From positions 124,001 through 188,000 of the forward strand of contig DLUH01000005.1 of NCBI GenBank assembly GCA_002742845.1: a DNA stretch of 64,000 bases, in the 5' to 3' direction. The position numbers and the translations under genes are program-made. Origin of the DNA: Sulfurovum sp. UBA12169 (GTDB lineage: Bacteria > Campylobacterota > Campylobacteria > Campylobacterales > Sulfurovaceae). The notes beneath the pieces were generated by a model that was given only the letters and a program-made list of their open reading frames with translations, searched no databases and was not told where the DNA came from. Of the stretch, positions 32,692 through 35,360 are shown piece by piece. Every line of letters begins with the position of its first letter. The stretch's first letter is position 1.

Positions 32692-33504
32692 TTATTTTTT
32701 CAATAATATCTCATACCACTCTTTTGTGCCTCTGTCACTAAGTTTTGCAAGAAGTTTTGCCTTGGGTTTCGGAGGCAAATCCAAAGCCAGCACTTCATCA
32801 AAGGAGAGACTTTTTTCTTTGTTTTTTTTTGCACCAATCACTACAACCCATTCTCCGCGAATTGTAATATCTTCAAACTGTTCATTGAGGCCCTTGGCTG
32901 TACCCTTATAATATCTCTGAAACTTTTTACTGATCTCTTTAGCCAAAAACAACTCTCTGTCTGCATCGATTGCCACAATCTCTTTTAAAAGTTTTTCCAA
33001 ACGATGCGGCGCCTCATAAAGCACAGTAGCATATCCATTGTGCATCGCTTCGCTTAAAGCACTGCTTCTTGAGCTTCCCTTGTGGGGCAAAAATCCAAAA
33101 AAAAGAAATTTTCCCTCTTCAAATCCCGAAGCAGCGTACGCTGTAGTTACAGCACTGGCTCCTGGTAAAACATCATAATCGATCTCTTTTTGCTGACAAT
33201 ATGCAACCAATAGCTGTCCGGGATCGGAGATCACAGGCATTCCTGCATCGCTTACATAAACAACCTCTTTTGAACTTAAAAGCGGACCAAATTGTGCCAA
33301 ACGCTCTACGCCGTTATGTTCGTTGAAAGAATAAAATTCAGCATCAGGATAATGCATATCAAAACGCTCTTCAAGCAAACGCAACAAATGCTTTGTGTGC
33401 CGCGTATCTTCACATAAAAAAATTTCTGTTTTTTCAAAAAGTCTCATTGCACGCAGGGTAATATCTTGGGGGTTTCCGATAGGGGTGGGAATAAATGTTA
33501 ACAC
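32692..33504 (-). CDS. rsmI: 16S rRNA (cytidine1402-2'-O)-methyltransferase
   Basis: Tetrapyrrole-methylase-fold enzyme recognised by FIPTPIGNPQDITLRAMRLF, CEDTRHTKHLL, YVSDAGMPVISDPGQLLV and GFLPHKG. Length 270 residues. The start is GTG at 33504, preceded by AAGGAG nine bases away; that ribosome site sits in the loop of a five-pair hairpin, AGTTC/GAACT (33510-33524 on the plus strand). A run of nine A (about 32822-32830) in codons for AKKNK is a possible slippage site. rpmE lies upstream on the same strand. Confidence 0.96.
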   Translation of the reverse strand: MLTFIPTPIGNPQDITLRAMRLFEKTEIFLCEDTRHTKHLLRLLEERFDMHYPDAEFYSFNEHNGVERLAQFGPLLSSKEVVYVSDAGMPVISDPGQLLVAYCQQKEIDYDVLPGASAVTTAYAASGFEEGKFLFFGFLPHKGSSRSSALSEAMHNGYATVLYEAPHRLEKLLKEIVAIDADRELFLAKEISKKFQRYYKGTAKGLNEQFEDITIRGEWVVVIGAKKNKEKSLSFDEVLALDLPPKPKAKLLAKLSDRGTKEWYEILLKK

Positions 33505-33619
33505 AGAAAAGTTCTCCTTGAACTGGAGGAAAGCCTGGACTCAACTCCTCTTTCACACTTTGCATACAGCAAAATTTTTATGACAAAGAATCAATCGCCC
33601 AGGCGGGGGGTCTTACAAA

Positions 33620-33820
33620 TTAACCGAGGTTATATTTTTTCTTAAATTTATCAACACGTCCTGCCGCATCAACAATCTTCTCAGAACCGGTAAAGAATGG
33701 GTGACACTCATTACAGATATCAATACTCAATTCAGACTTGTCTGATTTGACTTCAAATGTATTGCCACATGCACAAGTTACCTTGCATTCTACGTATTCG
33801 GGATGAATCTCTTTTTTCAT
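33620..33820 (-). CDS. rpmE: 50S ribosomal protein L31, zinc-binding form
   Basis: A 66-residue large-subunit protein. Cys16, Cys18, Cys36 and Cys39 (CACG and CNECH) form the zinc site of the C+ class, so it should be zinc-dependent; [23 protein letters not shown] is the conserved C-terminal stretch. Preceded by a long structured leader (33821-33972). The 115 bp between it and rsmI contain C/G-rich segments that may fold but no gene. Confidence 0.98.
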
Positions 33821-33972
33821 TTTTGTACCTTTTTAGTTTTTTTAGCGACAGGCAACCAACCTGTTCCGATACGTCATGTACCCTTCCACTATCTAAGATA
33901 ACGGGTCGCTGCAACGCTCTTTGGCGAGACAGCTCTCTTGCGCCCTGCAAGGAAATTCAGAATGGAATTATA
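33821..33972 (-). ncRNA. Structured 5' leader RNA of rpmE with promoter
   Basis: A TATAAT box lies at 33972-33967 on the minus strand, giving a start near 33960 and a 5' UTR of about 140 nt, far richer in G and C than neighbouring spacers. Complementary arms visible by eye: CTTGC/GCAAG (33937-33951), GAGA/TCTC (33926-33937), a long-range AGCGAC/GTCGCT pair (33905-33910 with 33844-33849) enclosing ACCC/GGGT, TAC/GTA and CAGG/CCTG hairpins, i.e. a multibranch fold. It ends about 20 nt before the L31 start. A cis-regulator such as an L31-binding autoregulatory leader, or a processed small RNA, are the likely options. Confidence 0.6.
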
Positions 33973-34016
33973 CCCAAAAAGTTTTAAAAAATTATAAATT
34001 TAAATACCTTGTTGTC

Positions 34017-35360
34017 TTATTTTCCAAAAAACTCCTCATAGCAGGATTTTGCCCAACCCTTAATCATTTTTGCATTTTTTATCCCTGTTTCGCCTTTCCA
34101 AATTTCATTGGTCACAGGTGTTGCAAAACTAAATCTTTGCATTTTTTTATCATAAGCATACTCCGAATGTATAAAAATACCCCTTTCAGGATAGGCAGAA
34201 ACAGCAGAAACACAAATGGTAATCGGGCTTGTCCATTGGGGTTTTGGCTGCTTGTTGATTTTAGCGGCAATATGCCTTGCAACATACTGTCCTTCGGTCA
34301 GCGAGGTATTGCCGGATTTAGAAAATCCCATCGGCCTGGCATCGCCTGAGATATAGATATTGGAATATCCGTACGCCTCATAAGTCTCGACATTAATGTC
34401 TCCTTCGAGCCTGTTATAGACTGAATCTTTAGCAACCCCTGCAATTTCAAGAAGTTTTCCGCCTCTAACATGAGGATAAAAAGATGCATCATCAAAATGG
34501 TATTCATCAAATTCAGTTTTTACAATCTTTTTCTCAAGATCGATACTCTCTATCGCCGCACTAGACTCCAAAACGATATAATCTTTGTACAACTCATCGA
34601 TCGCTGTGTGAAAACCATGCTCTTTGATCGTAATATCATTATTCTCATCAAGCAAAATAATTTTAGCGTTAAGCTTCTTTTGTTTGAAATAGTCTGCGAC
34701 AAGACAAGCCCTTTCATACGGAGCGGGAAGACATCTGTAATTTCCGCCCGGTACCGTCATGAGGAAAGTTCCGCCCTTGAAATTTTTGATCTTCTCTTTA
34801 AGTGTCACATGTTCGGATCCAGGTCTGAAAGCGGCTGGATACTCTTGTCTGAGTCTATTTTCCAGTGCGACATCATCCGTCCAAAAAGAGTAATCATATT
34901 CAATTCCAGGCGCCAACACCAAATAATCATACGGAATATCCCCCTCACTGGTATGCAAAATACAATTTTCTTTATCTACGCCCGTGGCTGTCGCATGAAA
35001 ATAGGTATATTTATGATTTCTGGCTGCTCGCAGATAATCATGTATCAAAAACTCCAGATCAATTTTATCAACCAGCCACTGATTGCTGAGAGGGCAAGAG
35101 ATAAAAATCTCCTCTTGTTCTACCATTACTACATCTGCCGAAGGCGCAAACAACTTGGTATATTTGGCAACACTCAATCCTGACCATCCTCCCCCTACTA
35201 CCACAACTCTTGGGCCTTTGGTCTTTTGAATAGGAGCAAGATTTGTTTTTTTGGCAGGCTGCATATCATCTTTTGTGTCAGAAGCATTGCTTTGCGTAGC
35301 AAACAATGCAGCCGTCAAAGTTGTGGTAAACTTAAGGACATCTCTTCTTGAAATCTTCAT
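34017..35360 (-). CDS. FccB/SoxF-like sulfide dehydrogenase flavoprotein
   Basis: A 447-residue exported flavoprotein with a twin-arginine-type signal (SRRDVLKFTTTLTAALFA), then the FAD-binding RVVVVGGGWSGLSVAKY. It has the flavocytochrome c sulfide dehydrogenase motifs FISCPLSNQWL and NYRCLPAPYERACL, whose cysteines form the redox disulfide, and ISGDARPMGFSKSGNTS near the C-terminus. In the family it oxidises sulfide and passes electrons to a diheme cytochrome (FccA/SoxE). No such cytochrome gene is adjacent, so the partner must be elsewhere or a monoheme cytochrome such as that at 37811. It sits between rpmE and rsmE, interrupting an otherwise housekeeping cluster, suggesting insertion into that locus. 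Confidence 0.88.
   Translation of the reverse strand: MKISRRDVLKFTTTLTAALFATQSNASDTKDDMQPAKKTNLAPIQKTKGPRVVVVGGGWSGLSVAKYTKLFAPSADVVMVEQEEIFISCPLSNQWLVDKIDLEFLIHDYLRAARNHKYTYFHATATGVDKENCILHTSEGDIPYDYLVLAPGIEYDYSFWTDDVALENRLRQEYPAAFRPGSEHVTLKEKIKNFKGGTFLMTVPGGNYRCLPAPYERACLVADYFKQKKLNAKIILLDENNDITIKEHGFHTAIDELYKDYIVLESSAAIESIDLEKKIVKTEFDEYHFDDASFYPHVRGGKLLEIAGVAKDSVYNRLEGDINVETYEAYGYSNIYISGDARPMGFSKSGNTSLTEGQYVARHIAAKINKQPKPQWTSPITICVSAVSAYPERGIFIHSEYAYDKKMQRFSFATPVTNEIWKGETGIKNAKMIKGWAKSCYEEFFGK

Follow-up and report, generated by a model that had tools for sequence, protein, structure and literature searches.

The rpmE gene lies on the minus strand of the window, that is, of the whole 64,000-nucleotide stretch of Sulfurovum sp. 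UBA12169 DNA that was analyzed here, and is followed downstream by rsmI and rlmB (Table 1). It was the only L31 match in this genome, and the named records most similar to it in L31 came largely from Sulfurovum and other Campylobacterota. A sequence-only reading of this DNA had placed a TATAAT box and, behind it, a structured 5'-untranslated region of ~140 nt in front of rpmE, and both were borne out by the sequence; its description of this leader as GC-rich is weak, the G+C content of the element being 45% here and 29-61% in relatives. Between rpmE and rsmI, the stretch GGAGGAAAGCCTGGACTC (33531-33560, plus strand) resembles the 5' signature of RNase P RNA, a candidate that was rejected given that the rnpB gene of this genome is located elsewhere (C1:669537-669893), and the look-alike is probably a chance occurrence or a remnant.

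Table 1. Features of the rpmE locus, in coordinates of the window
Feature	Position	Strand	Evidence
rpmE, bL31 of the zinc type, 66 aa	33820..33620	-	TIGR00105 and NF000612 above cut-off (NCBIfam)
Shine-Dalgarno region of rpmE, AAAAAGG	33828..33834	-	sequence and conservation
Conserved RNA, P1-P4	33933..33848	-	
P4, ACAGG-UUGGUUG-CCUGU, conserved heptaloop YURGUUR	33848..33864	-	covariation (model alignment, phylogenetic null)
P3, GGUAC..GUAUC	33868..33882	-	double-sided changes and two significant covarying pairs
P2	33886..33904	-	covariation (model alignment, phylogenetic null, structure-blind alignment)
P1, GCUG-UCU-CGC..GCG-UUG-CAGC, invariant internal loop	33908..33933	-	significant covarying pairs (phylogenetic null, structure-blind alignment)
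P0, optional 5' hairpin, CUUGC-AGGGC-GCAAG	33937..33951	-	compensatory changes by eye
TATAAT, -10 box of the predicted rpmE promoter	33972..33967	-	sequence

When the region was compared by BLAST with 100 related genomes, relatives were found within the genus, and conservation was concentrated between position 33934 and the rpmE start. At the 25 loci where the element and a start codon were paired by script, the element was always directly before rpmE (25/25), usually with a TATAAT-like box shortly upstream. When 21 of these loci were aligned, the consensus consisted of hairpins that showed compensatory changes. A covariance model (R1) was built from the leader, and 88 sequences were then aligned to R1. 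The conserved RNA consists of four consecutive hairpins, P1 to P4, located between the TATAAT box and the Shine-Dalgarno sequence of rpmE. The internal loop of P1 carries UCU on its 5' side in all 88 sequences and GUUGCA on its 3' side in 80 of them. P2 is followed by a conserved linker, GGAAG, whose GG closes P2 and which is invariant in the 21-locus alignment. All four consensus pairs of P3 show changes on both sides in the 21-locus as well as in the 88-sequence alignment. The heptaloop of P4 nearly always reads YURGUUR; in this loop (33859..33853 in the window), C as the first base occurs only with A as the last one (12/12) and never with G across 87 leaders, as if the loop might be closed by a non-Watson-Crick pair. 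The additional hairpin P0 is confined to the nearest relatives and to some further genera, where its compensatory changes were recognized by eye (CUUGC/GCAAG, CUCGC/GCGAG and CCCGG/CCGGG; L001-L004, L171 and L168).

The start of the rpmE transcript is predicted near position 33960. Because the -10 box ends 7-9 nt before the element in 59 of the 85 relatives in which such a box could be recognized, the conserved element is very probably carried on the rpmE transcript. In most members it is predicted to begin at about the first nucleotides of the mRNA, and the wider spacing observed in the window, ~30 nt, is due to the presence of P0. No terminator-like site was found in the leader region of the window.

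Support for the four hairpins came from several alignments. In the model alignment of 88 sequences, 94.5% of the cells were paired, compared with 78.4% after shuffling, 21 of the 23 pairs had changed in both partners, and covariation scored 0.524 versus 0.237 for the shuffled controls. Because an alignment made by a model leans towards that model, a phylogeny-aware test was added, in which pairs are evaluated by G-statistics against a null of columns that evolve independently of one another along a FastTree phylogeny, a simplified version of the null used by R-scape. With 86 distinct sequences, seven pairs were significant at E<=0.05, all of them within P1-P4 and every helix being touched (two of them in P3). 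In a MAFFT alignment made without structure, helix pairs likewise gave the strongest signals, six of them reaching E<=0.05 and a further two staying below 0.1. Forcing the four helices on the window sequence gave -45.2 kcal/mol versus a minimum of -45.4 kcal/mol, i.e. a cost of 0.2 kcal/mol. The lone window sequence folded no better than its shuffles (z = -0.68), so that the real evidence for the structure is comparative. The structured leader RNA anticipated from the sequence is thus real, as judged by the covariation in P1-P4, but the multibranched shape drawn for it has to be replaced by four hairpins in a row.

That multibranched RNA, closed by a long-range AGCGAC/GUCGCU helix and perhaps related to the SAH riboswitch, now appears hardly credible. 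The two strands of this helix can pair in the window and partly also in other members, but the proportion of paired cells (63.5%) equals the shuffled mean (63.4%), no excess of covariation was detected, the helix is not among the top covarying pairs of the structure-blind alignment, and its strands share nucleotides with the ends of P1 and P4, both of which are well supported. The segment that had been likened to the SAH riboswitch core is the 3' side of P1, and the Rfam SAH riboswitch did not match even at E<=10. No Rfam family matched anywhere in the window at gathering thresholds. When lax thresholds were applied to positions 33480-34100, the best match was the PreQ1-I riboswitch (RF00522), with 24.2 bits versus a gathering score of 39. 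P4 and the A-rich tail behind it do resemble the stem and tail of that riboswitch, but the loop-tail pseudoknot shows no compensatory change here and the gene context is L31 only; the PreQ1-I identity was rejected on account of the sub-threshold score and the unsupported pseudoknot. The pairing in question, between the P4 loop (UURGUU) and AACUAA beside the Shine-Dalgarno sequence, has a perfect complement in many members of the genus; it was rejected as part of the structure, given the lack of compensatory change and a tail that is not kept in other genera, and it left no signal in the structure-blind alignment. Such a pseudoknot is at most a possibility.

Searches with R1 revealed one strong copy in 73 of the 78 genomes of the Sulfurovum genus, the window genome included. 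Three of the five remaining genomes lack an L31 match in the assembly; in the other two, rpmE lies at the edge of a contig, and in one of them the P4 portion of the leader is still present. The missing strong matches are therefore largely explained by an absent L31 gene or a contig edge. At the family level, R1 matched in 139 of 175 genomes, which belong to 8 of the 11 genera of Sulfurovaceae, and among 399 genomes of the order no match at E<1e-9 was obtained outside this family. All the strong copies examined (88/88) were directly upstream of rpmE, and none of the weak matches (E between 0.001 and 0.1) fetched from places other than rpmE was accompanied by an L31 gene.

The natural variants of the leader point to P1 as its core. 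In a sister genus (g33) that gave no full match to the model, 9 of 10 genomes had a single occurrence of the P1 pattern, in each case 25-34 nt before the ATG of rpmE, and a reversed control pattern was absent from all 10. As judged by sequence, the g33 leader is P1 alone, reduced from P1-P4. Because only P1 is kept there, P1 with its invariant internal loop is the core of the element; it is probably the binding site of bL31, and P2-P4 are additions kept by most genera. With its one hairpin of 23 nt, this naturally reduced form could serve directly as a minimal construct in binding and structural studies. The converse case was recognized by eye at two loci (L174 and L191), where P2-P4 are still recognizable and a different hairpin takes the place of P1. 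Twelve of the 88 leaders harbor inserts between an intact P1-P4 and the start codon, which extend the distance from the P1 start to the ATG to 148-452 nt, versus roughly 100-135 nt in the others. A repeat element with the core TTCAGCAGNAGGCTCA was observed between P4 and the rpmE start at six loci (L083, L090, L093, L119, L122 and L025), inserted at nearly one site in the leaders of several species; its end is often formed by a small inverted repeat (GCAACTAGTTGC, for example) and a T-run, and further copies of the core were seen in L125, L126 and L015.

Leaders that respond to L31 are known from other bacteria. In E. coli, L31p represses the translation of rpmE through a hairpin in the 5'UTR whose inner loop is important (PMC9825181), and five L31 leaders, each a single hairpin, have been predicted in other lineages (Eckert and Weinberg 2020; PMC7247131), in a paper that mentions neither Campylobacter nor Epsilonproteobacteria. 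Like the L31-Gammaproteobacteria leader of E. coli rpmE (RF03157), the Sulfurovum leader is an rpmE 5'UTR that bears, near the Shine-Dalgarno sequence, a hairpin with an internal loop, but it has four hairpins instead of one, and neither matched the other: no Rfam L31 leader family, RF03157 included, was among the matches at E<=10 in 33480-34100, R1 gave no match at the rpmE locus of E. coli, and the same Rfam library did recognize RF03157 in E. coli. Moreover, the repressor shown in E. coli is the paralogue L31p, whereas one L31 gene was found in the Sulfurovum genome. With the leaders of Actinobacteria, Coriobacteria, Corynebacteriaceae and Firmicutes it shares a lineage-restricted distribution, a structured RNA directly before rpmE and a ligand assigned from a single regulated gene (PMC7247131); all of those are described as single hairpins, none has been reported from Campylobacterota, and none matched here at E<=10. 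No earlier report of a Campylobacterota L31 leader was found in the open-licence papers searched. The Sulfurovaceae leader is thus apparently the first L31 leader for Campylobacterota and absent from Rfam 15. By its sequence it appears to be an L31 leader that is specific to its lineage and folds in a new way, the kind of control being already known; its four-hairpin architecture is unlike that of the known single-hairpin L31 leaders, and the finding supports the view that L31 leaders have been invented anew in each lineage.

We consider it likely, by analogy, that the rpmE 5'UTR of Sulfurovaceae is a bL31 autoregulatory leader and thus one of the ribosomal-protein leaders (r-leaders). The strict association with rpmE, the lineage-restricted covarying structure and the lack of an Rfam match make this idea, already raised in the sequence-only reading, the best-supported one, and it is the best inference because of the E. 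coli precedent (PMC9825181) and the five predicted L31 leaders (PMC7247131). From the single associated gene, rpmE, we infer bL31 as the ligand and, by comparison with the known cases, its binding to the leader and the translational repression of rpmE. When bL31 is in excess over the ribosomes that need it, the free protein would bind the leader, contacting chiefly P1 with the invariant UCU/UU internal loop. Once bound, it would reduce the expression of rpmE, most likely because the loading of 30S subunits at the Shine-Dalgarno sequence close by would be blocked, mRNA decay being a possible further route. P2-P4, the conserved linkers and the P4 heptaloop may complete or stabilize the binding fold in most genera, and P1 alone would suffice in one sister genus. 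Since the element is at the predicted 5' end of the mRNA and no terminator-like site accompanies it, regulation is expected at the level of translation or mRNA stability. A simple occlusion of the Shine-Dalgarno sequence by P4 fits poorly because of the leaders with inserts before the start codon, and rpmE may therefore be controlled through mRNA decay. Regarding a possible mimicry of rRNA, a search of this genome's rRNA stretch for the exact P1 motif, as a sequence motif only, gave no match. The replacement of P1 with retention of P2-P4 in L174 and L191 was counted against autoregulation.

The predicted location at the very 5' end of the transcript and the tolerance of inserts before the start codon would also suit a structural element that sets the stability or basal translation of the rpmE mRNA with no specific ligand involved, e.g. 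by protection against 5' nucleases. This explanation seems unlikely to us, since the invariant unpaired bases (UCU/UU in P1 and the P4 heptaloop) exceed the needs of mere stability and the element is found on rpmE only, among 88 copies. Those same invariant loop bases in a compact conserved RNA, together with the fact that the L31 protein is here of the zinc type, might suggest a riboswitch for a small molecule or a metal, for instance zinc, which bL31 binds. It is a rather improbable reading, given that other genes of a pathway would be expected and no gene besides rpmE is associated, that no Rfam riboswitch reached threshold, and that the element is lineage-restricted, as r-leaders are. A small RNA acting in trans, either processed from the rpmE transcript or independent of it, might account for the separation of the element from rpmE by inserts in some genomes. 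Although a processed RNA had been put forward as the alternative in the sequence-only reading, we rate its probability as slight: the region lacks a terminator-like site, the element was never away from rpmE among the copies examined, and the P1-only version keeps a fixed distance to the start codon.

Other conserved elements were noticed next to rpmE in Campylobacterota. In other families of the phylum, a short hairpin of the form CYUGUUAU..AUGCARG is found directly before the Shine-Dalgarno sequence of rpmE (L152, L162, L170, L205, L207, L208, L225, L231 and L234). It shares UGUY/UGCA with P1, the loci tested gave no Rfam match, and judging from its sequence this hairpin may be another L31 leader. 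It is conceivable, although we give the idea rather little weight, that L31 leaders arose several times in Campylobacterota and that the P1 loop (UGUCUC..GUUGCA) and this hairpin share one small L31-recognition motif, UGUY opposite UGCA, as a minimal site kept or repeatedly found. If so, the P2-P4 scaffold would be a lineage-specific elaboration that works even apart from the ribosome-binding site. The Sulfurimonas-like group shows yet another conserved rpmE leader, consisting of a hairpin AUCCGCACCCAUACGGAU, then UAAAAAAUAUAUCG, and then a second, variable hairpin (L183, L197, L206, L210, L211, L242 and L248), which had no Rfam match at the loci tested. A different conserved element upstream of rpmE has a -10 box to itself and comprises CCCCUCCCCCUAUAUAGCAGUAGGCUC and, behind it, the opposite arm of a terminator-like hairpin (L231, L152, L207, L161, L172, L145, L229, L226 and others). 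Absent from Rfam, it looks like a C-rich small RNA of ~60 nt, and a pattern search located it in 6 of 60 genomes of the order, two of which have second copies away from rpmE.
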